A stretch of 47,554 nt of DNA from assembly GCA_016201865.1 (NCBI GenBank), contig JACQCA010000038.1:1-47554 (forward strand), in the 5' to 3' direction. Both the position numbers and the translations under genes were made by a program. This document shows, in pieces, positions 21,796 through 47,435 of this stretch. The DNA comes from Nitrospirota bacterium. Lineage in GTDB: Bacteria > Nitrospirota > Nitrospiria > JACQBZ01. Positions within the stretch are counted from its first letter, which is position 1, and each line of letters opens with the position of its first letter. The notes under the pieces were generated by a model. It did no database searches, had not been told where the DNA came from, and saw only the letters and a program-made list of their open reading frames with translations.

Positions 21796-22344
21796 TTGAG
21801 AGTTGTAAGTGAAAGGGCGAAGCTATATCTTGAGGAGGTCGACTCCTCTAATGATGGGGTTTGTTGGTACGCTCTTTGGACCCGGTCACGTCATGAAAAA
21901 CATGTCCGTGATCAGCTCAACGGAAAAGGGATCGAGCCGCTTCTCCCCCTGGTACGGCGAGTGAGCCACTGGAAAGACCGGAAAAAAGAGGTTGAACTCC
22001 CCCTCTTTCCAGGTTATTGCTTTGCCCGTTTTGCCTGGAAAGATCATCTTGCCGTTGTAAGAGCCCCCGGCGTGGTGCAGGTTATCGGTAGTTCCGGCAA
22101 ACCCGAACCTATTCCGGATCACGAAATCGAAACGATCAAAAAACTCATGACCCACATCCTTCCCTATGACTCCCATCCCTATCTTCGGGAAGGGATGCGG
22201 GTGCGTGTGATCCGCGGCCCGCTCGAGGGAGTAGAAGGGATTCTCACCCGGAAAGGGCGGCACCATCGGGTGGTGATCGGCATCCAACTGATTCGACAGG
22301 CCGCCGTGGTTGAGGTGGAATCGGCGGATGTAACTCCATTGTAA
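21796..22344 (+). CDS. NusG/RfaH-like locus-specific transcription antiterminator
   Basis: 182 residues from a TTG start, supported by GAAGGGAG ending eight bases upstream. The NGN domain reads WYALWTRSRHEKHVRDQLNGKG near residue 22, then LPLFPGYCFARF and VRAPGVVQVIG. A KOW domain near the C-terminus reads EGMRVRVIRGPLEGVEGILTRK. Such NusG paralogues (RfaH, UpxY, LoaP types) act on long polysaccharide operons by suppressing pausing and Rho termination. Being the first intact gene after the promoter, it probably promotes transcription of the genes that follow. I found no convincing ops sequence in the leader. Confidence 0.85.
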   Translation: MRVVSERAKLYLEEVDSSNDGVCWYALWTRSRHEKHVRDQLNGKGIEPLLPLVRRVSHWKDRKKEVELPLFPGYCFARFAWKDHLAVVRAPGVVQVIGSSGKPEPIPDHEIETIKKLMTHILPYDSHPYLREGMRVRVIRGPLEGVEGILTRKGRHHRVVIGIQLIRQAAVVEVESADVTPL

Positions 22345-30708: not shown

Positions 30709-32484
30709 GTGTGCGGCATTTGCGGAATATTGAATTTTGACGGCGCGCCCGTCCGCCCGGAAGAAATAACGGCGATGAGTCGCGTTCTTGCGCATCGCGG
30801 TCCTGACGACGATGGCGTCCATCTCGACGGCGCGCTCGGGCTGGGGCATCGGCGGCTTTCGATCATCGACGTGGCACACGGGCATCAGCCGATGACCAAC
30901 GAAGATAATACGGTTTGGGTCGTCTTCAACGGCATGATCTACAATTACAAGCCGCTCGCAGATGCATTGGTTCGATCGGGACGGAAATTCGCGACGAACT
31001 GCGACACCGAAGTCCTTGTTCACGCATACGAAGAATGGGGCATCAAGATGCTCGAGCGGTTGAACGGACAGTTTGCTTTTGCCATCTGGGATGGCAAGCA
31101 GCTTTTCATGGCGCGCGATCGAATGGGAGAAAAACCGCTCTACTACGCCGTCGTGAACGAGACCTTTTATTTTGCATCCGAAATCAAAAGTCTCCTGGCG
31201 CATGTTCGCCCCCAACCCAACATCCCACCCGACTTTTTCGTTTTCGAAAACACGTTGACCGATGACACGCTCTTTCAAGGCATCAAAGAACTCCAGCCCG
31301 CGCATTATCTTTTGGTGAATGAACGCCGCGATCTCACGCCACGACGTTACTGGTCAATCTCAAACGAAGTGAATGAAGACCTAACCGAAGCCGAAGCCGT
31401 CCAACAGTTACGCGATTTAGTTTACGATGCCGTGACGATTCGCTTACAATCCGAAGTCCCGGTAGGAATGTATTTGTCGGGAGGCTTGGACTCTTCGATC
31501 ATTGCGTGCATCGCGAAACCGGGTTGCGTCTTTACAAGTTTCTACGCCGAGCCGGGCAAATTCGACGAGCGCGAAGCGGCGCGCGCGGTGGCACGTCAAA
31601 TCAGAACGGAGCAAATATTTGTGACACTCAAGCCGGAAGATGTCCCTTCGCTCTTCGAAAACATTATTTACCATCTCGATCAACCCATCTCCAGTTCGTC
31701 CACCATCACCAGTTTCAATCTGGCACACAATGCGCGGGAAATTGTCAAAGTCGTTTTGAATGGACAGGGCGCGGACGAATTATTCGGCGGCTACGGTCGC
31801 TATGTCCTGTTGCATCACGAAGTCGAACTGGGGCACCTGCCGTTCTTTGCGCAATACACTCCGATGGCTCGTCGCTTTTGGAATTCGAACATGTTCGGCG
31901 ACCCGGCGCTGCGCTATCTCGAATTGAACCAGCGCGTCTCGCCTCGTACTTCATTGCCGGCGGATACGGTCCGGCAATTATTTGCGTATCATTCCGACAT
32001 AGTTTCTCAAATGGGCTATACCGATGCCGCGATTACGCTCCAAGACTTGATCAAAATGGACGACCGCGGCTGCGCGCATGTCGGACTCGAAAGCCGCTCG
32101 CCGTTTCTCGATCATCGCATCGTCGAATTTGCTTTTCGTCTGCCGGCTCGTTTCAAAATTCGGTCAGGTGGTGCGACGAAATGGATCTTGCGCGAGGTCG
32201 CGCGCGAGTTCGTGCCGCTGGAAATCGTCGAGCGCAAGGACAAGATGGGGATGGTCAGCCCGATCGGTGTGTGGCTGCGGCGCGAATTGCGCTCGTGGAC
32301 CGAATCACTTGTCGCGTCGCTCCAAGCGCGCCGGCTCGATTTGCCGACTGAAAAACCGGAAGATAATGAGTACGACCGGCGTCTGCACGCGCTCATCAGC
32401 ATGGAACTATGGTTCCGCAGATTTATTGACCGAAGCGAATTGATTTCAACCAAGGAACAACATCAAGTCATTCAAAAAGTTTGA
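30709..32484 (+). CDS. asnB: AsnB-type glutamine-dependent amidotransferase
   Basis: 591 residues. A GTG start puts Cys2 of MCGICGILNFDG in the nucleophile position of a class II glutaminase domain, with LAHRGPDDDGV and the glutamine-loop region GLGHRRLSIID following. The synthetase domain contains the PP-loop SGGLDSS at residues 257-263 and GQGADELFGGY. It matches asparagine synthetase over its full length. In polysaccharide loci such proteins (for example WbpS) are thought to amidate uronic acids, which fits the aminouronic acid genes upstream. Aspartate to asparagine remains possible. Codon style (many CGCG runs) differs from both neighbours. Confidence 0.9.
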   Translation: MCGICGILNFDGAPVRPEEITAMSRVLAHRGPDDDGVHLDGALGLGHRRLSIIDVAHGHQPMTNEDNTVWVVFNGMIYNYKPLADALVRSGRKFATNCDTEVLVHAYEEWGIKMLERLNGQFAFAIWDGKQLFMARDRMGEKPLYYAVVNETFYFASEIKSLLAHVRPQPNIPPDFFVFENTLTDDTLFQGIKELQPAHYLLVNERRDLTPRRYWSISNEVNEDLTEAEAVQQLRDLVYDAVTIRLQSEVPVGMYLSGGLDSSIIACIAKPGCVFTSFYAEPGKFDEREAARAVARQIRTEQIFVTLKPEDVPSLFENIIYHLDQPISSSSTITSFNLAHNAREIVKVVLNGQGADELFGGYGRYVLLHHEVELGHLPFFAQYTPMARRFWNSNMFGDPALRYLELNQRVSPRTSLPADTVRQLFAYHSDIVSQMGYTDAAITLQDLIKMDDRGCAHVGLESRSPFLDHRIVEFAFRLPARFKIRSGGATKWILREVAREFVPLEIVERKDKMGMVSPIGVWLRRELRSWTESLVASLQARRLDLPTEKPEDNEYDRRLHALISMELWFRRFIDRSELISTKEQHQVIQKV

Positions 32485-32586: not shown

Positions 32587-34074
32587 ATGAGAGACCCGAA
32601 AGTTCTTTTGATTTACCCGCCCCCCCGGTTATTGCCGATTGAGACTCCAAGACCAGACGGCTCGCTGGGCATGCTTTATCTGGCTGGAGCTTTAAGGCAG
32701 ATTGGGATTGAAGCGGATCTACTGGATACATCCATCGGCGGCCCCAAAGACACGCTAGAGGATACATTTTACCGAAACGTACAACTTGAGAACGGCCTGA
32801 CCCAGATTGGAATGTCGTGGGACAGAATCGCCGAGGCGGCGGCCGGTTATGACATTGTGGGGATACATTCCAACCACACTTCACAGACCAAAGCATCGTT
32901 CAAGGTGGCGGAGATTGTGAAGCGGGTGAATCCCAAGGCGCTGGTAATAGCCGGCGGAATAAGCGCCAGAGCGTTGTGGCAACGGTTCGTCGACCAGGGG
33001 ACATTTGATCTGATTTGCACCAGTGAGGGTGAGAGGACAATCCAGGAAATTGCCCAACGGTTCAGGCAAGGACAGCGTTACCAGGGAATTTGCGGCACGC
33101 TTGGCAATCCGCCACACTTTCATCAAAACCTCGATGAGCTTCCATTCCCAACTTGGGACAAGTTATTGCTTGATAAATACGAGCAGATAGCCGCACCTCA
33201 CGGGGTTGACTTGACCGGCCAGCAATACCGCTATCAGAATTTGATGACCTCGAGAGGTTGTCCGTTCCAATGCGCTTACTGTCATATCTCAAAGGAGAGA
33301 TTCAATAGAAGCGAGGAAATTGGCAACGTCGGCGCACTCCGGCTTAAATCCGTTGACAGGGTGCTTCAGGAGATTGAGGTGCTTCAATCTTTAGGAGTGA
33401 AGAAGATCTTTATTGAGGACGACTCTCTGTTGGCGAAGAAAGCGCGAATCATAAGCATCTTTAAGGCGATACAAGGCAAGGATCTGCTTATCGCCGATGT
33501 CAACGGAGTGAATCTCGTTCATCTGTTCAAGCGCACCGCAAACGGGCTGGAACCCGACAAAGAGTATCTTCAGCTTCTCTTTAGTGCCGGCCTACGCCAA
33601 ATCGTCTTCCCCGTAGAATCAGGCTCCCAGAGAGTGATAGATAAGTATGCGACGGGCAAACTGACTCTAGAAACCATGGACGTGATTAGCCTCATTCGGG
33701 TGGCGAAGTCCGTTGGGATGATCTGCCCAATCAACATAATGATCGGTTTCCCAGATGAAACCGAACAAGAAATGATGATGAGCATCGAGCTCTCAAAGAG
33801 ACTGATCGACGCAGGCACCGACTACGTGACCTTTTTCATTCCGATTCCCTTTCCGGGAAGCCAGCTTTACGACATCGCTATAGAGAACGGACATCTCCGT
33901 CCTGACTTTGACACCGACATAATGAATTACAAGAACGGGGTAATGGAAAACACCACCGTTCCGAAAGAGCGAATTGTAGCGCTTCGCGATTGGGCGTGGA
34001 CCACAGTCAATTCCAAAGAGCATATTGCCAAAAGGCTCCAAGAAAGCATGGGGGCCCGCTGGCAGGAAGTCTAA
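32587..34074 (+). CDS. Cobalamin-binding-domain radical SAM enzyme
   Basis: 495 residues. The N-terminal 150 residues look like a B12-binding Rossmann domain (KVLLIYPPPRLLPIETPRPDGSLGMLYLAGAL, then VIAGGISARALWQ), although no classical DxHxxG motif is present. The radical SAM core starts at the cluster motif CPFQCAYC (Cys225, Cys229, Cys232). FIEDDSLLAKKARI and FPVESGSQRVIDKYATGK are typical of the Elp3/MiaB/B12-rSAM fold, and MIGFPDETEQE is also conserved. Such enzymes in surface-glycan loci may methylate or rearrange unreactive carbons, but here substrate and reaction are unknown. A second gene for a methyltransferase-like protein follows after a strong hairpin. Confidence 0.85.
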   Translation: MRDPKVLLIYPPPRLLPIETPRPDGSLGMLYLAGALRQIGIEADLLDTSIGGPKDTLEDTFYRNVQLENGLTQIGMSWDRIAEAAAGYDIVGIHSNHTSQTKASFKVAEIVKRVNPKALVIAGGISARALWQRFVDQGTFDLICTSEGERTIQEIAQRFRQGQRYQGICGTLGNPPHFHQNLDELPFPTWDKLLLDKYEQIAAPHGVDLTGQQYRYQNLMTSRGCPFQCAYCHISKERFNRSEEIGNVGALRLKSVDRVLQEIEVLQSLGVKKIFIEDDSLLAKKARIISIFKAIQGKDLLIADVNGVNLVHLFKRTANGLEPDKEYLQLLFSAGLRQIVFPVESGSQRVIDKYATGKLTLETMDVISLIRVAKSVGMICPINIMIGFPDETEQEMMMSIELSKRLIDAGTDYVTFFIPIPFPGSQLYDIAIENGHLRPDFDTDIMNYKNGVMENTTVPKERIVALRDWAWTTVNSKEHIAKRLQESMGARWQEV

Positions 34075-34081
34075 CAAATTA

Positions 34082-34116
34082 AGGATTTTTTCGCGCGACA
34101 GCCGCGAAAAAATCCT
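34082..34116. repeat. 14-bp perfect inverted repeat downstream of the radical SAM gene
   Basis: AGGATTTTTTCGCG (34082-34095) and CGCGAAAAAATCCT (34103-34116) pair perfectly around a seven-base loop CGACAGC. It begins eight bases after the radical SAM stop. The T-run lies inside the stem and not after it, so ordinary Rho-independent termination is not predicted; it could be an mRNA-stabilising hairpin, a protein-binding site or an element end. Confidence 0.6.
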
Positions 34117-34158
34117 GGGTTGGACTAAATCCTGTGCCACGACGAAGGACGTTCGACG

Positions 34159-35097
34159 ATGCACTGGAAACTGAAAGCGGCCATACAAAATACCGTATCC
34201 CTGTTGCCCTCCTCTGCCGGGTATGCCGTGTATTACTGGATACAGCGGCACTTTGGCGGTCTGAGGCAGATGAACCCCGTGGGCGGGTTATCAGCAGGGA
34301 TCGAGATCTGGAAACGGATCGACAGGCACGGCTCCGACCCCGTCGGCAAGGTTTTTCTGGAAGTCGGAACGGGAAGAGCGCCCATCACACCTCTGTCCTA
34401 CTGGTTGATGGGGGCCGACAGGACCATTACCATCGATCTGAATCCCTATTTGCGGGCCGAGCTGGTCCGGGAAAGCCTTCAGTACATCGCGGACCATGAC
34501 GGGGAAGTGCGGCGGTTGTTCGGGGACTTCCTGGAAGCTCGAAGGCTGGATGAGCTGCTCGGTTTTCACCGCAAATACCCCTTTACGGTGGGCGCGTTCC
34601 TCGATCTGTGCCGCATCGATTATGTCGCGCCCGGCGATGCCGCTCAGACCCATTTGGCCGAGCGGAGCATCGACTTTCACACCTCGTACACCGTACTCGA
34701 ACACATACCGCCGCAGACAGTGCGTCGGATTCTCGCGGAGGGGATCCGCATCGTCGCCAAGGGTGGGTTGTTCATCCATAAAATAGACTACAGCGACCAC
34801 TTCTCGCATTCGGACAGGACCATACTCCCCGTCAATTTTCTTCAATACTCCGACGCCGAATGGGAACGCTATGCCGGCAACCGCTACATGTATATGAACA
34901 GGCTGAGGCATGACGACTACATCAGCCTGTTTCAGGATGCGGGACACAGCCTCCTGGCGGCCGAGTGCGAGGTATGCCCGCGGTCGCGCGAATCGATCAC
35001 AAGCGGGCGTCTGCGTCTGGATGGGCGCTTCTACGGCAAGTCGGAAGAGACGCTTGCCACCATAGGCTCCTGGATCGTGTCGCGGAAGGGCGAATGA
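34159..35097 (+). CDS. SAM-dependent methyltransferase-like protein
   Basis: 312 residues with a class I methyltransferase fold. Motif I is VFLEVGTGRAPITPLSYWL near residue 65, and the acidic end of strand 2 is TITIDLNPYL. A post-core segment FHTSYTVLEHIPPQTVRRIL matches the SAM-binding strand 4 region of Methyltransf_11/23 proteins. The insert between strands 2 and 4 (about 60 residues, IADHDGEVRRLFGDF to APGDAAQ) is longer than usual. Substrate unknown; could methylate a sugar or a lipid-linked intermediate. It follows the radical SAM gene across the inverted repeat. The 127-base gap after it shows nothing I recognise. Confidence 0.75.
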   Translation: MHWKLKAAIQNTVSLLPSSAGYAVYYWIQRHFGGLRQMNPVGGLSAGIEIWKRIDRHGSDPVGKVFLEVGTGRAPITPLSYWLMGADRTITIDLNPYLRAELVRESLQYIADHDGEVRRLFGDFLEARRLDELLGFHRKYPFTVGAFLDLCRIDYVAPGDAAQTHLAERSIDFHTSYTVLEHIPPQTVRRILAEGIRIVAKGGLFIHKIDYSDHFSHSDRTILPVNFLQYSDAEWERYAGNRYMYMNRLRHDDYISLFQDAGHSLLAAECEVCPRSRESITSGRLRLDGRFYGKSEETLATIGSWIVSRKGE

Positions 35098-36367: not shown

Positions 36368-37348
36368 ATGATTATTACGCGCAGCCCGCTACGCATCACG
36401 CTCGGGGGCGGAGGCACGGACCTCCCGTCTTACTACCGCAAGCATGGCGGCTCTTTGATTACCGCGGCCATTGACAAGTATGTGTATGTCACGGTGATGC
36501 GGCCGTTCACGGAAGGGATCTACCTCAAGTATTCGAAGCTCGAGCAAGTCGAGACGGCCGACGACGTCCAGCACCCGATCATTCGCGAAGCGATTCGGAT
36601 GCTCGACTTCAGAACGCCGCAGCTGGAAATCACCTCCCTGGCCGACATTCCGGCCGGTACAGGCCTCGGATCGTCCGGCAGTTTCTCGACGGCCTTACTG
36701 AAGGCGCTGCACGTGCATCGCCGCCGGATGCTTCATGCCAGCGAACTGGCGGAGCTGGCGTGTGAGATCGAGATTGGCCGGCTGGGCGAACCCGTCGGCA
36801 AACAGGATCAGTACGCCGCTGCCTACGGCGGCGTGACCTGCTTCACCTTTAATCCTGATGACACCGTGAAGGTGTGTCCGCTGAACACGAAAATGCCTAC
36901 CCTGTTCGAACTCGAAGACAACCTGCTGCTTTTTTTTACCGGCTTCTCGCGGAACGCCAGTTCGATTCTCCAGGACCAGAAACACCGCACGGAGCGGTCT
37001 GACAGCGCGATGCTCGAGAACCTCCACTACGTCAAGGCACTTGGCCTGCGCTGCCTGGAGGCGATCGAGAGCGGCAAGCTGACGCTGTTCGGCGAGCTGA
37101 TGCACGAACACTGGGAGCGCAAGAAGCGCCGCTTCAGCGGCATGAGCAACCCTGACATTGACGCGTGGTACGAACTCGCTCGGAACAACGGCGCGATTGG
37201 CGGGAAGCTCGTGGGAGCCGGCGGCGGCGGCTTCCTGCTGTTTTACACGGAGGAACATCGCCGGTTGCGGGCGGCAATGGCCAAGGCCGGTCTCCAGGAA
37301 ATGCGCTTTAAGTTCGACTTTGAGGGCACGAAGGTGCTGTTCGGATGA
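36368..37348 (+). CDS. hddA: D-glycero-alpha-D-manno-heptose 7-phosphate kinase (HddA)
   Basis: 326 residues, GHMP kinase. The start MIITRSPLRITLGGGGTDLPSYY is the HddA/DmhA signature. The ATP motif PAGTGLGSSGSFSTALLKAL lies near residue 95, and GEPVGKQDQYAAAYGG and the C-terminal GKLVGAGGGGFLLFY complete the family pattern. It phosphorylates heptose 7-phosphate at C1 to the alpha-1,7-bisphosphate, the branch that leads to GDP-heptose. Its stop overlaps hddC by four bases, and it begins a five-gene overlapping block. Confidence 0.92.
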   Translation: MIITRSPLRITLGGGGTDLPSYYRKHGGSLITAAIDKYVYVTVMRPFTEGIYLKYSKLEQVETADDVQHPIIREAIRMLDFRTPQLEITSLADIPAGTGLGSSGSFSTALLKALHVHRRRMLHASELAELACEIEIGRLGEPVGKQDQYAAAYGGVTCFTFNPDDTVKVCPLNTKMPTLFELEDNLLLFFTGFSRNASSILQDQKHRTERSDSAMLENLHYVKALGLRCLEAIESGKLTLFGELMHEHWERKKRRFSGMSNPDIDAWYELARNNGAIGGKLVGAGGGGFLLFYTEEHRRLRAAMAKAGLQEMRFKFDFEGTKVLFG

Positions 37349-38055
37349 GTCTTCCAGTCGTCATTCTGGCCGGCGGCCTGGCGAGGCGGCTTCGGCCGAT
37401 GACGGAACGTCTGCCGAAGTCGCTCGCGGACGTCGCGGGTCAGCCGTTCGCTATACACCAGATCGAGTTGCTGCGCCGCCACGGGCTCACCGACATAACC
37501 TTCCTCGTCAGTCACTTGGGTGAGATGATCAGCGCCACGCTTGGCGACGGCGCGCGATGGGGTGTGCGGCTGCGCTACATCTTCGACGGTCACAAGCAAC
37601 TTGGTACGGGCGGCGCCATCAGCAGGGCGCTGCCGGAGTTGGACGATCCATTCTTTGTGATGTACGGCGACGCGTACTTAGAGTGTGACTATGGCGCGAT
37701 CGCACACGCCTTCCTCGCGAGCGGAAAGCGCGGCCTTGTGACGGTCTACCGCAATGAGGACCGGTTCGACCGGAGTAACATTCTGTTTGCCGACGGGCGG
37801 ATCGTTCGCTACGACAAACAGCACCGCACGCGCGAGATGCGCCACATCGACTACGGCCTGGCGGCTTTCCGGAAGTCCGCGTTTCGGGGACGAACTGAAG
37901 GCGAAGTGTTCGATCTCGCTGCGGTGTACGAGGATCTGCTCGCGCACGACGACTGCGTCGGATACGAAGTGCCAAATCGGCTTTACGAGATTGGTTCGGC
38001 GGAGGGACTCGAAGACCTGCGTGCCTACCTCGCTGCGAAAGGCACATCCGCATGA
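37345..38055 (+). CDS. hddC: Heptose 1-phosphate guanylyltransferase (HddC)
   Basis: 236 residues, nucleotidyltransferase fold. The signature VVILAGGLARRLRPMTERLPKSL is at residues 5-27, and the metal-binding Asp is in FFVMYGDAYLECD. Similar sequence types include glucose-1-phosphate and mannose-1-phosphate nucleotidyltransferases, so the heptose assignment rests on neighbours hddA, gmhA and gmhB. It would couple heptose 1-phosphate and GTP to GDP-D-glycero-alpha-D-manno-heptose. It overlaps both neighbours by four bases. Confidence 0.88.
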   Translation: MSLPVVILAGGLARRLRPMTERLPKSLADVAGQPFAIHQIELLRRHGLTDITFLVSHLGEMISATLGDGARWGVRLRYIFDGHKQLGTGGAISRALPELDDPFFVMYGDAYLECDYGAIAHAFLASGKRGLVTVYRNEDRFDRSNILFADGRIVRYDKQHRTREMRHIDYGLAAFRKSAFRGRTEGEVFDLAAVYEDLLAHDDCVGYEVPNRLYEIGSAEGLEDLRAYLAAKGTSA

Positions 38056-38687
38056 CGAGCTACGCTAAACAGTATCTTGAAGAAACGGCCCGGGTGGTTG
38101 CCCGCCTCGACGCAGCCGCAATCGAGAAGATGGCGACTCTGCTCGCGGACCTCCGTGCGCGCGGCGGCCGGCTGTTCTTCCTTGGCGTGGGCGGCAGCGC
38201 CGCGAACTGCTCGCACGCCGTGAACGATTTCAGGAAGATTGCCGGGATTGAGGCTTATACGCCCGTCGATAACGTGTCGGAGCTAACGGCCCGCACGAAC
38301 GACGAGGGATGGGAGCGAACGTTTTCTGCGTGGCTTGAGGGCAGCCGGCTACAGGCGAAGGACATGCTCTTCGTGTTCTCGGTCGGCGGCGGCAGCCTCG
38401 AGCACAACATTAGCCCGAACCTTGTGCGTGCGTTGCAGTACGCCCGGCAGGTGGGGGCGCAAGTCGTCGGGGTCGTAGGCCGCGACGGCGGATACACCGC
38501 GCAGGTTGCCGATGCGTGCGTGATCGTGCCGACGGTCAACCCGGTCAACATTACGCCGCACTCGGAGGCGTTCCAGGCCGTCGTGTGGCACCTGCTCGTC
38601 TCGCATCCGGCGCTCAAGGCCGCTCAGACCAAATGGGAATCGACGGGAAAAGCCGCCGCGCCGTCTTCCTCGATCGTGACGGAGTGA
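38052..38687 (+). CDS. gmhA: Sedoheptulose 7-phosphate isomerase (GmhA)
   Basis: 211 residues with a SIS domain. FFLGVGGSAANCSHAVNDFRKIAG is the GmhA-type phosphosugar-binding motif, and FVFSVGGGSLEHNISPNLV is the second. It converts sedoheptulose 7-phosphate to D-glycero-D-manno-heptose 7-phosphate, the entry to the pathway. It resembles the GmhA-like forms of GDP-heptose clusters, which often have NDFRK where the ADP-heptose type has AAE. The gene overlaps hddC by four bases and gmhB by about 55 bases. Confidence 0.9.
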   Translation: MTSYAKQYLEETARVVARLDAAAIEKMATLLADLRARGGRLFFLGVGGSAANCSHAVNDFRKIAGIEAYTPVDNVSELTARTNDEGWERTFSAWLEGSRLQAKDMLFVFSVGGGSLEHNISPNLVRALQYARQVGAQVVGVVGRDGGYTAQVADACVIVPTVNPVNITPHSEAFQAVVWHLLVSHPALKAAQTKWESTGKAAAPSSSIVTE

Positions 38688-39202
38688 TCAACCGGGCCGT
38701 CGTTCGGGACGGCAAACCCTATCCACCGGCTCGCGTTGAGGAACTCGACGTGCTGCCGGGTGTGGCGGTGGCGTTAGAGCGCCTGAAAGCCGCCGGGTAC
38801 CTGCTGATCGTCGTGACCAACCAGCCCGACGTCGCGCGAGGCACGCAGTCGCGGACCGTCGTGGAGGCGATTCACACCCGGCTGGCATCCTTGCTACCGA
38901 TCGACGAATTCCGCGTGTGCTATCATGACGACGGTGACGCGTGCGTGTGCCGAAAGCCGAAGCCGGGATTGATTCTCGACTCGGCGCGCGCTCATGGTGT
39001 GGACCTCCACGCGAGTGTCATGGTGGGTGACCGCTGGCGCGACGTCGAGGCGGGAGAACAGGCGGGCTGCGCGACGGTGTTTCTCGATCACGGATACGCG
39101 GAACGGAAGCCGCGGAAACCAGATGCCGTGTTCGGGTCGCTGCCGGAGGCGGCCGAATGGATTCTCGCTCGTCCATCAGGGGCAACCCATGAAGTCTGTT
39201 GA
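38633..39202 (+). CDS. gmhB: Heptose 1,7-bisphosphate phosphatase (GmhB)
   Basis: 189 residues from ATG 38633; a longer open frame exists upstream but is shadow of gmhA, and ATG 38633 starts just before the HAD core. HAD motif I is AVFLDRDGVINR, motif II is VVTNQPDVARG, and the zinc-loop pattern CYHDDGDACVCRKPKPG and motif IV MVGDRWRDVEAG match GmhB. It removes the C7 phosphate so HddC can act. The 55-base overlap with gmhA is unusually long, and the stop overlaps transaldolase by 14 bases, suggesting tight coupling. Confidence 0.88.
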   Translation: MGIDGKSRRAVFLDRDGVINRAVVRDGKPYPPARVEELDVLPGVAVALERLKAAGYLLIVVTNQPDVARGTQSRTVVEAIHTRLASLLPIDEFRVCYHDDGDACVCRKPKPGLILDSARAHGVDLHASVMVGDRWRDVEAGEQAGCATVFLDHGYAERKPRKPDAVFGSLPEAAEWILARPSGATHEVC

Positions 39203-39905
39203 CCAGCTCTCGGTGAAGATTTTCGCGGATGGAGCAGACCTGCCTGGCATGGTCGAAATGTACGGCAAGCCGTACATCAAGGGGTTCACGACGAACCCGA
39301 CACTGATGCGGAAGGCGGGGATCAGCGACTATTCGGCGTTCGCCAGACAGGTCCTGCAGGCGATTCCGGACAGGCCGATTTCTTTCGAGGTGTTCTCGGA
39401 CGAGTTCGGAGAGATGGAGCGCCAGGCGCGAGCGATCGCGAGCTGGGGCCAGAATGTGTACGTGAAGATCCCGGTGACGAACACGCGCCGCGAGTCGGCG
39501 TGCGATCTCGTCCGTCGGCTAGCCCACTCGGGTGTGAAGCTGAATATCACCGCGCTGCTGTCGCTCGGCCAGGTGCGTGACGTGGCGGAGGCGGTGGCTG
39601 GCGGCGCGCCCGCGTGCGTGTCGGTCTTTGCCGGCCGCGTGGCAGACACTGGGTACGATCCAGTCCCGCTGATGGCCGCAGCTGTCGAGATACTGCGGTC
39701 CGCGCCAGACGCAGAACTGATCTGGGCCAGCCCGCGTGAGCTCCTCAACATCTTTCAAGCCGACGCCATCGGCTGTCACATCATCACCGTGACGAACGAC
39801 ATTTTGAAGAAGCTGTCTCTGATCGGCCGGTCCTTGGACGAATATTCGCTCGATACGGTGAAGATGTTCTACAACGACGCGGCGCAGGCAGGCTTCACGC
39901 TTTAG
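39189..39905 (+). CDS. Transaldolase family protein
   Basis: 238 residues from ATG 39189; an open frame begins earlier but only as shadow of gmhB. It resembles small (TalC/FSA-like) transaldolases: IKGFTTNPTLMRKAGISDY near residue 31, Schiff-base Lys93 in VYVKIPVTNT, and VSVFAGRVADTGYDP. In the pentose phosphate pathway transaldolase moves a dihydroxyacetone unit and can make sedoheptulose 7-phosphate from fructose 6-phosphate and erythrose 4-phosphate. That is exactly the substrate of the adjacent gmhA, so it may feed the heptose pathway. FSA-type activity is an alternative. Confidence 0.88.
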   Translation: MKSVDQLSVKIFADGADLPGMVEMYGKPYIKGFTTNPTLMRKAGISDYSAFARQVLQAIPDRPISFEVFSDEFGEMERQARAIASWGQNVYVKIPVTNTRRESACDLVRRLAHSGVKLNITALLSLGQVRDVAEAVAGGAPACVSVFAGRVADTGYDPVPLMAAAVEILRSAPDAELIWASPRELLNIFQADAIGCHIITVTNDILKKLSLIGRSLDEYSLDTVKMFYNDAAQAGFTL

Positions 39906-41457: not shown

Positions 41458-41652
41458 GAAGGTGGAGATAATGAATTTTTCCACCTTGCCACGATTGCGG
41501 CTGTCCCATTTCACAACCTGCCAGTATTTGAGCCCATTCGACAAGGTTTGGAAACCATAGACCGAGTTTTGTTAAAACTTCCTTTTCTAAAATGGCAAGC
41601 GTGGATGGCTGTATTTGTCCTGTCCCAACCGAAGAAGACAGTTGCCCGTTAG
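41458..41652 (+). pseudogene. C-terminal fragment of a SAM methyltransferase
   Basis: Between two genes, a frame without start codon reads EGGDNEFFHLATIAAVPFHN, then LPVFEPIRQGLETIDRVLLK and LPFLKWQAWMAVFVLSQPKK, ending TVAR at a TAG (41650-41652). This resembles the end of class I methyltransferases found in glycan loci, where a helix plus RWQAW-VFVLSQP precedes the stop. The first 200 or so residues are missing, so it is a remnant. It begins directly after an in-frame TAA at 41455. Confidence 0.45.
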
Positions 41653-41666
41653 AGGAGCGGTCTGGC

Positions 41667-42335
41667 ATGCTGAAACGTATCTTCGATTTCCTGGGATCAT
41701 TCACTGGGCTGTTAGTGCTTTCTCCGATGTTTCTGTTCCTCGCTCTCATGGTCAAGCTTGAAGATGGAGGGCCAGTTTATTACAGAGGTGTTCGTGTGGG
41801 CCGGTATGGCCGACCTTTCCGAATCTTCAAGTTCCGAACGATGGTTGTAGACGCGGAAAAGCTGGGCGCCTCCTCCACACCGGGGGATGACCAACGGATT
41901 ACGAGAATGGGGAAGTTCTTGAGGCGGTACAAACTGGATGAATTGCCACAACTGATCAACGTGCTCAAGGGGGAGATGAGCTTTGTCGGCCCGCGGCCTC
42001 AGGTTTCCTGGGCTGTCAAGCTCTACAACGACGAAGAGAAAGCCCTCCTGACGGTGCGCCCGGGGATCACCGACTATGCGTCCATCAGGTTCAGTAATGA
42101 GGCTGATATCCTGTGGGGGAGCGCTGACCCCGATCGAGAATATCTGATCAAGATCGCGCCGGAGAAGGTCAGGCTGGGTCTGGAGTATGTCAGAAACCAC
42201 TCGCTGTGGGTGGATTTGAAGATCATCCTGGCTACTCTCTGGAGCTTGGTAGGAGGCGATCCCGCCAGAATTCTTGGGGCTCCAGAACGTTCGAGTGGCT
42301 CAGTCGATAACTCTCATCATCACGAGGGGGCATAA
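41667..42335 (+). CDS. Undecaprenyl-phosphate sugar phosphotransferase (PglC type)
   Basis: 222 residues from ATG 41667, nine bases after AGAGGAG; an in-frame ATG at 41592 lies in the remnant and is rejected. A single N-terminal re-entrant helix (RIFDFLGSFTGLLVLSPMF) is followed by the small monotopic phosphoglycosyl transferase domain: FRIFKFRTMVVDAEKLG, catalytic Asp91-Glu92 in YKLDELPQ, and KGEMSFVGPRP. It transfers a sugar 1-phosphate to undecaprenyl phosphate, starting the repeat unit. The only intact initiating enzyme in the window; substrate could be a UDP-HexNAc derivative. Confidence 0.93.
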   Translation: MLKRIFDFLGSFTGLLVLSPMFLFLALMVKLEDGGPVYYRGVRVGRYGRPFRIFKFRTMVVDAEKLGASSTPGDDQRITRMGKFLRRYKLDELPQLINVLKGEMSFVGPRPQVSWAVKLYNDEEKALLTVRPGITDYASIRFSNEADILWGSADPDREYLIKIAPEKVRLGLEYVRNHSLWVDLKIILATLWSLVGGDPARILGAPERSSGSVDNSHHHEGA

Positions 42336-42339
42336 GATC

Positions 42340-43074
42340 ATGAAACCCTTGCGGACCGGAATCGAGCAGCAAGTGGGCAAGAACATCGATCGCATCTTCA
42401 CTGATTGTTCTGATCCCGTTGAAATCAAGCTGGAGAATTTTCCAAAGTACGTGCGGCGGCAGCACCTGAAGCGCTTTCTCGCGCTCTACGAGATCTTCAA
42501 GCTCATTCTGCCTGTAAAAGGGTCCATCGTTGAGTGCGGTGTGTACCGTGGGTTTGGCTTGATGTCGTGGGCAAAGCTTAGCACCATACTGGAACCCGAA
42601 AATCTAACAAGACGTATCTACGGGTTCGATACCTTCGAGGGTTTTCCTTCTGCTCATGCCAAAGATCAGAGTGAGTATAAGAAAACGGAAGAGGGTGAAC
42701 TGGCATCCAGTTGTTATGATGAGTTGCTACAGCTAATTAAAGAATATGACTCCGACAGATTCCTCGGCCATATCGGAAAGGCAGAATTGATCCGGGGGGA
42801 TATGGTTAAGACAATTCCAGAGTTTATCGAAAAGCGCCAACACTTAGTGGTTAGTTTGCTCTTTTTAGATTGTGATTTGTATGAACCTACGAAAGCAGCT
42901 ATAGAGTACTTCCTTCCGAGAATGCCCAAAGGAGCGGTCATTGCCTTTGACGAGTTGGATAATCCAATTTGGCCTGGCGAAACTTCAGCTCTCCTTGATA
43001 CGGTGGGCGTTGGTAGGCTCAAGCTCCGAAGAATTGAGTGGGATCCGTATATATGTTACGCGGTTCTGGAATAA
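42340..43074 (+). CDS. TylF/MycF-type O-methyltransferase
   Basis: 244 residues from ATG 42340, chosen because GAGGGGG lies nine bases upstream; the frame opens earlier at 42274. The macrocin O-methyltransferase family motif is GSIVECGVYRGFGLMSWAKL, followed by YGFDTFEGFP. SLLFLDCDLYEPTKAAIEYFLPRMPKGAVIAFDEL carries the metal-binding acidic residues. Members methylate sugar hydroxyls in antibiotics and glycans. It would decorate a sugar of the polymer. The end lies 14 bases before the next ATG. Confidence 0.85.
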   Translation: MKPLRTGIEQQVGKNIDRIFTDCSDPVEIKLENFPKYVRRQHLKRFLALYEIFKLILPVKGSIVECGVYRGFGLMSWAKLSTILEPENLTRRIYGFDTFEGFPSAHAKDQSEYKKTEEGELASSCYDELLQLIKEYDSDRFLGHIGKAELIRGDMVKTIPEFIEKRQHLVVSLLFLDCDLYEPTKAAIEYFLPRMPKGAVIAFDELDNPIWPGETSALLDTVGVGRLKLRRIEWDPYICYAVLE

Positions 43075-43088
43075 AGAGGTTAAGGGGG

Positions 43089-43934
43089 ATGGGCGCGAGA
43101 AAAACAGGCATCGGTTCGGATATGCAGTGGAGTGAGGCTTTGGCCAAAAAAATTCGATGCCACGTCCTAAAAATGACACATCGGGCCAAAAGCGCTCATG
43201 TGGGCACCTCCCTTTCAATGGCCGACCTGCTGGCGGTGCTTTATGGTGGGGTGTTGCGTGTGGATCCCAGCAGCCCGGATTGGCCGGACCGAGATCGTTT
43301 CATTCTTAGCAAGGGGCATGGCTGTGCCAGCCTTTATGCCGTCCTTGCGGAGCGAGGTTTTTTCCCACTCGCCTGGTTGGATGATTTTTATCAGGACGGC
43401 TCGCACTTGGCTGGTCATGTCACGCATACGGGGGTCCCAGGGGTGGATGCCTCCACCGGTGCTTTGGGGCATGGTTTGTCTATTGGATGCGGTATGGCCC
43501 TGGCAGGCCAACGTGATTCGCAATCCTACAGAGTGTTCACCTTGTTGAGCGATGGGGAATGCGATGAGGGCTCAATCTGGGAGGCGGTCCTCTTTGCGCC
43601 TCATCACAGGCTGGATAATCTGGTGGCCATCGTGGATTACAACAAGATTCAGAGCCTCGGGACTGTCAAAGAAGTTCTCGACCTGGACCCTTTGGCAGTC
43701 AAATGGGAGTCTTTCGGCTGGGCCGTGCGGGAAATCGATGGGCACAATTTCGGGGAAATTGAGGATGCGCTGACAAACCTTCCTATCAGGACCGGGCAAC
43801 CGAGCTGCGTGATTGCCCATACCGTTAAGGGCAAAGGGGTGAGCGCCATGGAGAACAAACTCCTCTGGCACTATCGGTCTCCCGATGAAGAAGAGTTGCG
43901 TCAGGCGTTGGCAGAATTGGAATTATCGGAATGA
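43089..43934 (+). CDS. Transketolase N-terminal half (TPP-binding subunit)
   Basis: 281 residues from ATG 43089 with AAGAGG nine bases upstream; the frame opens earlier at 43038 inside the TylF gene. It covers the pyrophosphate-binding domain of transketolase: ILSKGHGCASLYAVLAERG, HVTHTGVPGVDASTGALGHGLSIGCGMALA and the TPP/Mg motif LLSDGECDEGSIWEAVLFA...IVDYN. Together with the next gene it makes one complete heteromeric transketolase, which moves two-carbon ketol units between sugars. Such split pairs occur in many genomes. In a glycan locus the likely uses are making sedoheptulose 7-phosphate or building a modified sugar. Confidence 0.93.
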   Translation: MGARKTGIGSDMQWSEALAKKIRCHVLKMTHRAKSAHVGTSLSMADLLAVLYGGVLRVDPSSPDWPDRDRFILSKGHGCASLYAVLAERGFFPLAWLDDFYQDGSHLAGHVTHTGVPGVDASTGALGHGLSIGCGMALAGQRDSQSYRVFTLLSDGECDEGSIWEAVLFAPHHRLDNLVAIVDYNKIQSLGTVKEVLDLDPLAVKWESFGWAVREIDGHNFGEIEDALTNLPIRTGQPSCVIAHTVKGKGVSAMENKLLWHYRSPDEEELRQALAELELSE

Positions 43935-44863
43935 GGACCGTATTCTTCCGGACATTGTTGGATTCCGCCGAGCGGAACGAGCGTATCAATCTAGTCGTCG
44001 GGGACCTCGGGTTCGGGGTGGTCGAGCCGTTTGCCGCAAAGTTCCCTAAGCGCTTTCTCAATGTAGGTGTGGCCGAACAGAATATGACCGGGATTGCCGC
44101 AGGGATGGCGCTAAGCGGTAAGATCGTATTCACCTATTCCATTGCAAACTTTCCGACCCTGCGGTGTTTGGAGCAGGTCCGGAACGATGTCTGCTACCAT
44201 AACGCCGATGTAAAAATCGTTGCGGTCGGCGGTGGTTTTGCCTATGGGTCGCTTGGAATGACCCATCATGCGACGGAGGATTTGGCCATCATGCGGGTCC
44301 TTCCGAGGATGGTTGTCGTGGCACCTGGGGATCCGATTGAGGCAGAGCACGCCACACGCGCGATCATCGGCCATCCCGGTCCATGTTACCTGAGGCTTGG
44401 TAGAGCAGGAGAGCGCGTCGTCCACCGGCCGGATGTTTCGTTTCAGATTGGCAAAGCGATTGTTACCCGCAATGGTAGCGACATCACATTGATCTCCACA
44501 GGTGGAATTTTGGAGACCACGCTTCGAGTGGCGGATCGATTGGCCGCGGATGGGATACAAACAAGGGTGTTGAGCATGCATACGATAAAGCCGCTGGATT
44601 CAGAAGCCGTGCTTGCGGCAGCACGAGAGACCCGGGCGATCGTCACCCTTGAAGAGCATAGTGTGCTCGGTGGGCTTGGAGGGGCAGTGGCTGAGATCCT
44701 GGCGGAATCCGGCATGTCGAATGTAACTTTTAAACGACTGGGGCTGCCTTCAGCCTTTGCTTCTTGTGTGGGCAGCCAGGAATATCTCAGAGCGGTCTAT
44801 GGGCTTTCGGAGGATGGGATTCTCAAATCGCTAAAACCGGTTCTGGATCTTGTCGGAAGTTAG
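43931..44863 (+). CDS. Transketolase C-terminal half
   Basis: 310 residues, overlapping the N-half by four bases. It holds the pyrimidine-binding domain, NLVVGDLGFGVVEPFAAKFP and NVGVAEQNMTGIAAGMALSG, with Glu49 as the TPP N1' activating residue. The C-terminal transketolase domain has DITLISTGGILETTLRVADRL and IVTLEEHSVLGGLGGAVAEI. Like many split forms it also resembles the matching part of DXP synthase, but the N-half lacks DXS features and has the transketolase pattern. The pair should form a heterotetramer in the cytoplasm. Confidence 0.93.
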   Translation: MRTVFFRTLLDSAERNERINLVVGDLGFGVVEPFAAKFPKRFLNVGVAEQNMTGIAAGMALSGKIVFTYSIANFPTLRCLEQVRNDVCYHNADVKIVAVGGGFAYGSLGMTHHATEDLAIMRVLPRMVVVAPGDPIEAEHATRAIIGHPGPCYLRLGRAGERVVHRPDVSFQIGKAIVTRNGSDITLISTGGILETTLRVADRLAADGIQTRVLSMHTIKPLDSEAVLAAARETRAIVTLEEHSVLGGLGGAVAEILAESGMSNVTFKRLGLPSAFASCVGSQEYLRAVYGLSEDGILKSLKPVLDLVGS

Positions 44864-46871: not shown

Positions 46872-47435
46872 ATGCAGCGAACTTTGGAAAATCCGTTCGA
46901 TGAAAAAATAAAAAGCAACCGGCGTATTAAAAGGGTGTTCGATCTTGTCCTCTCATTAACTGTGCTGATTATTTCGTCCCCCCTTTGGGTTGTCGTTGCG
47001 ATCTTAGTCAAGGTGACTACTCCTGGTCCTGTTTTTATCGCGCAGGGACGGATCGGAAAAGGGTTCCTCCCTTCCAAACTTTGGAGGTTTCGTACGGTAG
47101 TGGGGGATCCCCTGAAAGCGGATTCGGATATCGCATCCGGGACCCATTTGAGGATTACAAAGATCGGATATCTCCTTCGCGCTTTCAAGTTGGACGGGCT
47201 TCCCCAACTGTTTAACATTCTCAAGGGAGAGGTGAGCCTGGTAGGGCCTCGCCCAGAAGATGATAAATATGTGGAGCTATTTCAAAAGGATTATCAGATC
47301 ATTCTAACAGTTCCACCGGGGATTACCGATCTTGCTTCCATCGAGTTTCGAGACGAATCCTCCCTACTCGCTCAATCGGACGATCCGGAAACCTGCTACA
47401 TCAATAAAGTATTGCCTAGGAGCCTGTCCGAGTAA
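46872..47435 (+). pseudogene. Truncated, catalytically altered sugar transferase
   Basis: 187 residues similar to the sugar transferase at 41667 but shortened and altered. Residues 21-43 form the membrane helix (RVFDLVLSLTVLIISSPLWV), and KGEVSLVGPRPE is retained. In place of the catalytic Asp-Glu the sequence reads FKLDGLPQ, Asp108-Gly109, so the second catalytic acid is missing. After YINKVLP the frame runs into RSLSE and stops. The paralogue continues there with about 45 more residues (EKVRLGLEYVRN...). The break coincides with the likely end of an insertion sequence at about 47420. Probably inactive. Confidence 0.7.

Follow-up and report, generated by a model that had tools for sequence, protein, structure and literature searches.

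A bounded family of cobalamin-type radical SAM proteins in bacterial and phage glycan loci, with a near clade coupled to a heptose/octose activation module

A B12-type radical SAM protein (495 residues; 32587-34074, plus strand), encoded in an exopolysaccharide locus of a Nitrospirota MAG (G000, 2.47 Mb), probably adds a carbon to a C7 or C8 sugar. Coupling between its near clade and a heptose/octose activation module is well supported by the gene neighbourhoods, and so is the sharp boundary of the family to which it belongs. The locus was analysed in a window of 47,554 nucleotides, the whole stretch of DNA considered here; it is also present in a second genome (G313:C46) and in record VGXC01000046. 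In the literature that we searched, neither the family nor its link with a C7/C8-sugar module nor its occurrence in phages appears to have been described, and a search for radical SAM enzymes together with heptose and polysaccharide retrieved nothing relevant.

Domains, motifs and fold of the radical SAM protein

The open reading frame carries two Pfam domains. The radical SAM domain (PF04055, residues 221-402) scores 61.4 bits against a gathering threshold of 29.5, and the motif CPFQCAYC, read directly at 33259-33282 (plus strand), provides the cysteines C225, C229 and C232 of a CX3CX2C [4Fe-4S] site, invariant in an alignment of 45 sequences. Ahead of it lies a B12-binding-type Rossmann domain (residues 27-155; 32665-33051, plus strand), which matches PF02310 with 37.6 bits (gathering 32.1) and aligns with the corresponding domains of TokK and CysS. 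Judged by these signatures, the protein belongs to the radical SAM superfamily, in the class-1 cobalamin-dependent architecture where a Rossmann-type B12 domain occupies the N-terminus. The initial annotation had noticed both the cluster motif and a B12-like domain lacking DxHxxG, and it was right on the two counts: direct reading finds no DxHxxG anywhere in the protein. This absence is not unusual, because OxsB, TsrM and TokK bind base-off cobalamin without a histidine ligand, turning instead an Asn, Arg or Trp of the loop after strand 3 toward the cobalt (PMC13331322). In the window protein this loop reads S95-x-x-T98-x-Q100, within a pattern S-x-x-T-x-Q that extends across the family, and in a profile alignment the position of TokK Trp76 falls beside the invariant Gln100. 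The beta-hairpin that OxsB, TokK and TsrM share after strand 5 occurs in several relatives; the window protein has a shortened version of it and its phage relative L153 has none.

An AlphaFold model of the protein (pLDDT 91.9) has AprD4 (6fd2) as its top Foldseek match, with TM scores of 0.68/0.74, and its full-length matches include TsrM, OxsB and TokK. The family profile covers the cobalamin domains of TokK and CysS (profile positions 81-302 and 78-307, respectively), whereas it meets AprD4 over the radical SAM core alone (230-454).

Scores were then set against the curated cut-off of each known family. The best curated profile, NF038361 (the Sden_1168 P-methyltransferase), is matched over almost the full length with 126.8 bits, for a cut-off of 575, and it ranks first for each of the five members of the family that were tested (119-160 bits); no protein above its cut-off was found in the phylum. 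HpnJ comes second, with 89 bits against 577.6. Further down are BchE (68.2 against 481.35), the AprD4 profile NF033070 (48.6 against 500), HpnR (37.5 against 650) and MiaB/RimO (26 against 355.3). By these profile scores the window protein is outside every curated family, including the hopanoid, BchE and MiaB groups.

Extent and carriers of the family

Among 396 genomes of the phylum we saw only one close homologue, at 41% identity. Scanning genome contigs with the single protein returned no match; a profile built from two sequences recovered further members in genome and viral contigs, and a profile built from ten yielded 21 viral loci at 37-50% identity. Members of the family lie at 37-56% identity, and the next relatives do not exceed 31%; full-length homologues score 336-563 bits, the best outsider 166. 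In the tree, the stem of the family has a length of 1.05 and a support of 100/100. The near clade (support 100/99) joins the window protein with those of a Parcubacterium (L079), of the unclassified bin-482 (L073) and of a phage (L153). No further member was found in 380 genomes of the Parcubacterium's phylum, and the best match among INPHARED phages was partial, with only 24% identity. The wider family is carried, within glycan islands, by phages, Nitrospira, Azospirillum and Streptomyces; the member in Azospirillum lipoferum 4B is encoded by plasmid AZO_p6. Genes for a major head protein on L157 and L154 back the phage origin of the loci found there.

Some twenty IMG/VR contigs (L157-L177) have the gene within large glycan islands, in places near head protein genes, in the company of glycosyltransferases, epimerases, RfbC, DegT, carbamoyltransferase and AsnB-type proteins. 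In two Streptomyces (L077:8746-12825 and L078:9191-13661) its neighbours are a PhyH-type dioxygenase on one side and a carbamoyltransferase on the other, and the group may be an uncharacterised natural-product cluster. A second radical SAM protein lies near the B12-type one at L073:2078-3220 (SPASM-type), L175:8904-9995, L154:10042-10896 and L170:3987-5027.

The glycan locus and its heptose/octose module

The window locus encodes Wzi, a Poly_export/SLBB protein, a Wzz-like chain-length protein and a NusG-like protein, together with a UDP-sugar dehydrogenase, Gfo/Idh, DegT aminotransferases, glycosyltransferases and two initiating sugar transferases. The NusG-family protein (21796-22344) heads the glycan genes and is possibly an operon-specific antiterminator. 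The two initiating transferases, of the Bac_transf type (41592-42335 and 46872-47435), perhaps point to a pair of repeat-unit systems or to a fusion of loci.

Directly upstream of the radical SAM gene is an AsnB-type glutamine amidotransferase (30709-32484, plus strand). Downstream, beyond a methyltransferase and a GT4 gene, five activities of a sugar-activation module are gathered in 36368-39905, all on the plus strand, in frames that overlap or almost abut. These are an HddA-like GHMP sugar kinase (36368-37348; NF049969, 168.5 bits, cut-off 600), whose nearest PDB entry, 3k85, is a heptose kinase; an HddC/MurU-like sugar-1-phosphate nucleotidyltransferase (37345-38055) and a GmhB-like HAD-IIIA phosphatase (38633-39202), both named after the curated profiles nearest to them; a SIS sugar-phosphate isomerase (38052-38687); and a short transaldolase (39189-39905), which passes TIGR02134 (transald_staph) with 341.8 bits for a cut-off of 281.95. 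Farther on, a split transketolase (43038-44863, plus strand; N half 43038-43934, C half 43931-44863) could supply the C7/C8 ketose phosphate.

The isomerase reaches only 54 bits with the GmhA profile TIGR00441 (cut-off 209.45), and because the same genome holds a second, better GmhA-like gene (189 bits) we regard it as a divergent paralogue. It has Asp and Gln at the aligned Glu and His positions of GmhA, which we take to be the catalytic pair. With its counterpart in the Parcubacterium (L079:16381-17004), 59% identical between phyla and with the same two replacements, it forms a divergent subfamily that may isomerise a different ketose phosphate.

The closest described routes to such sugars share most of these activities. 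The lincomycin octose is built by LmbR, N, P, K and O, the same five activities as in the window (PMC12945683), and the GDP-heptose route (GmhA, HddA, GmhB, HddC) has the window's activities minus the transaldolase, with a GmhA from which the window isomerase diverges at the positions just given. Neither route has a radical SAM enzyme.

Gene neighbourhoods across the family

The initial annotation had seen no obvious place for the protein in known sugar pathways; its near clade gives it one. Around the Parcubacterial gene are a GHMP kinase, the SIS isomerase, a transaldolase and a nucleotidyltransferase, and on the phage contig L153/L157 the gene is directly flanked by a transaldolase, a SIS isomerase, an epimerase and a GHMP kinase. 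The bin-482 locus, with just 543 bp of upstream sequence, has a HAD phosphatase. In a control set of 132 loci of other B12-type radical SAM proteins, neither SIS nor transaldolase genes occur (0/132 each), and GHMP genes occur in three. To be sure, complete flanks are available for no more than three of the loci with the module, and the isomerases and transaldolases of the phage and the Parcubacterium are unequally close to those of the window.

The rest of the family resides in glycan loci without the module, so that the substrate may be broader, or met later, as a glycan intermediate. Other neighbours recur. A carbamoyltransferase is near the gene in 10 of 29 family loci (1/132 controls); 11 of the 21 viral loci have a member of a 2OG-oxygenase-like family (0/132), and an AsnB-type amidotransferase occurs in the window and four viral loci (2/132). 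These counts are not independent, since many of the viral loci are close mutual relatives. A 215-residue family (L159:5060-5704, with relatives in ten other viral loci) usually adjoins the radical SAM gene; its match to TIGR04324, the 2OG-Fe(II) oxygenase of sporadic carbohydrate clusters, is weak (45 bits), and neither Pfam nor PHROG has a family that it matches.

The hairpin and the neighbouring methyltransferase

The gene that follows (34159-35097, plus strand) encodes a class I SAM methyltransferase of 312 residues, recognised by Methyltransf_11 (24.8 bits, gathering 21.2); its AlphaFold model has a helical insert at about residues 100-150, and fold searches retrieve generic class I methyltransferases only. 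Between the two genes stands a perfect hairpin of 13 bp (34083-34115, plus strand; folding z = -4.1), and a step in G+C content from 0.49 to 0.57 also separates them. The long insert and the hairpin, both pointed out at the outset, are thus real. A dispersed repeat was considered for the hairpin and rejected, as it is unique in the 2.47-Mb genome; so was a coding-strand terminator, no T-run following it on that strand (a scan found it terminator-like on the minus strand only).

The two genes had been proposed to act as a pair. None of the nine other neighbourhoods of the radical SAM gene contains the methyltransferase, nor does any of the seven other tested genomes that bear a radical SAM gene of the family. 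The sole close homologue of the methyltransferase (56%), in genome G322, occurs by itself in a housekeeping setting, with an aconitase-like gene on one side and genes of tRNA and isoprenoid metabolism on the other; no relative was found in viral contigs, and plasmids gave a single match at 25%. The pair is therefore accidental at the level of the family, and the methyltransferase is a neighbour unrelated to the radical SAM protein. The initial annotation had named two outcomes that would tell against it: lack of co-conservation is what we find, and grouping with a hopanoid, bacteriochlorophyll or tRNA enzyme is not, the scores lying far under the cut-offs. Its broader proposal, a B12-type radical SAM protein of a glycan locus, outside the curated families and plausibly performing undescribed sugar chemistry, holds.

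Proposed chemistry and its alternatives

The gene content suggests a path in which the radical SAM protein would act specifically on a rare seven- or eight-carbon sugar of the exopolysaccharide. Transketolase and transaldolase would produce a long ketose phosphate, which the SIS isomerase, GHMP kinase, HAD phosphatase and nucleotidyltransferase would convert to an NDP-sugar, as happens on the way to heptose (GmhA-HddA-GmhB-HddC) and to the lincomycin octose (LmbR-N-P-K-O). With SAM and cobalamin, a 5'-deoxyadenosyl radical would then remove hydrogen at an unactivated carbon of the sugar, and the methyl group of methylcobalamin would pass to that carbon, yielding a sugar with a C-methyl branch, in the manner of MoeK5, GenK and GenD1 on other sugars. 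C-methylation of sugar carbons by these three enzymes is on record (PMC8992657; PMC5461906). Compared by description only, they have the B12-type radical SAM architecture of the window protein and act on sugar carbons as well; they differ in belonging to antibiotic pathways and in acting on other sugars. Moenomycin biosynthesis involves amidation and carbamoylation, which parallels the AsnB and carbamoyltransferase neighbours of the family. To our knowledge, none of the three is associated with a heptose/octose module. Cobalamin-borne methyl transfer is favoured because the B12 domain passes its Pfam threshold, because the family profile reaches the cobalamin domains of TokK and CysS and only the core of AprD4, and because the nearest curated profiles are those of cobalamin enzymes. 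Two facts temper this preference: the nearest solved fold is that of a radical dehydratase that transfers no methyl group, and both the window protein and L153 have a degenerate hairpin after strand 5. Cobalamin binding, C-methylation and the exact substrate are what we infer, and we give a C-methylating or closely similar cobalamin enzyme acting on the module's sugar about an even chance; another radical modifier of the C7/C8 sugar, in place of a C-methyltransferase, is less likely.

Two competing readings also place the enzyme on a sugar. It could resemble AprD4, removing a hydroxyl group from the long sugar as a diol dehydratase or deoxygenase, with an NAD(P)H reductase to complete the reaction and cobalamin left unused. 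AprD4 does top the structural matches and works on a sugar with its reductase AprD3 (PMC5461906), and NAD-dependent epimerase/SDR genes are near the radical SAM gene in L079 and L153. Such genes are nevertheless common in the controls too (28/132), no reductase gene adjoins the window gene, AprD4 has a CX3CX3C motif (CPYPCRFYC) where the window protein has CX3CX2C, its N-domain is outside the family profile, and its curated profile is matched at a tenth or so of the cut-off; we consider this reading rather unlikely. A rearrangement of the HpnJ or OxsB kind, or other non-methylating chemistry such as ring contraction, carbocycle formation or epimerisation on the sugar, is in our view quite improbable. 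Non-methylating cobalamin radical SAM enzymes are known (PMC13331322), and HpnJ, the second-best profile, acts on an amino-sugar ring, turning BHT glucosamine into BHT cyclitol ether (PMC12583986). The score is far below the HpnJ cut-off, however, the annotated window genes include none for hopanoids, and nothing points positively to a rearrangement.

Two further readings fare worse. Joint action with the adjoining methyltransferase, be it in a single modification or upon a lipid carrier, would fit two adjacent genes on the same strand, 84 bp apart. It is contradicted at family level by the distribution of the methyltransferase, and the housekeeping setting of its homologue, the unique hairpin and the G+C step speak against it as well; a strain-specific link is possible, and we hold the reading as a whole to be very improbable. 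Methylation of phosphorus on a phosphinate, as by Sden_1168 or PhpK (NF038361, TIGR04479), would agree with the best curated match. That match is far from its cut-off, no PEP mutase scores above cut-off in the window's genome or in seven other genomes bearing the family, and the neighbourhoods are glycan loci, so that we find this hardly credible. C-methylation of the module's sugar is the reading that we retain.

Significance

Little is known of radical chemistry on the higher sugars of bacterial and phage glycans. The module narrows the candidate substrates to a short list, and the reaction of the family can therefore be tested directly in vitro. More boldly, and only tentatively, the family could be a phage-mobile set of cobalamin radical SAM enzymes that C-methylate or radically remodel an activated C7/C8 sugar, giving a branched higher sugar new to bacterial and phage glycans. 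The window protein appears to work like known sugar-acting radical enzymes, the new part being the family, its coupling to the module and its presence in phages. That near relatives lie on phage contigs, one of which also has a major head gene, suggests that enzymes for the radical modification of sugars are carried by phages, and such phage-borne modifiers bear on the variation of surface glycans in phages and their hosts.
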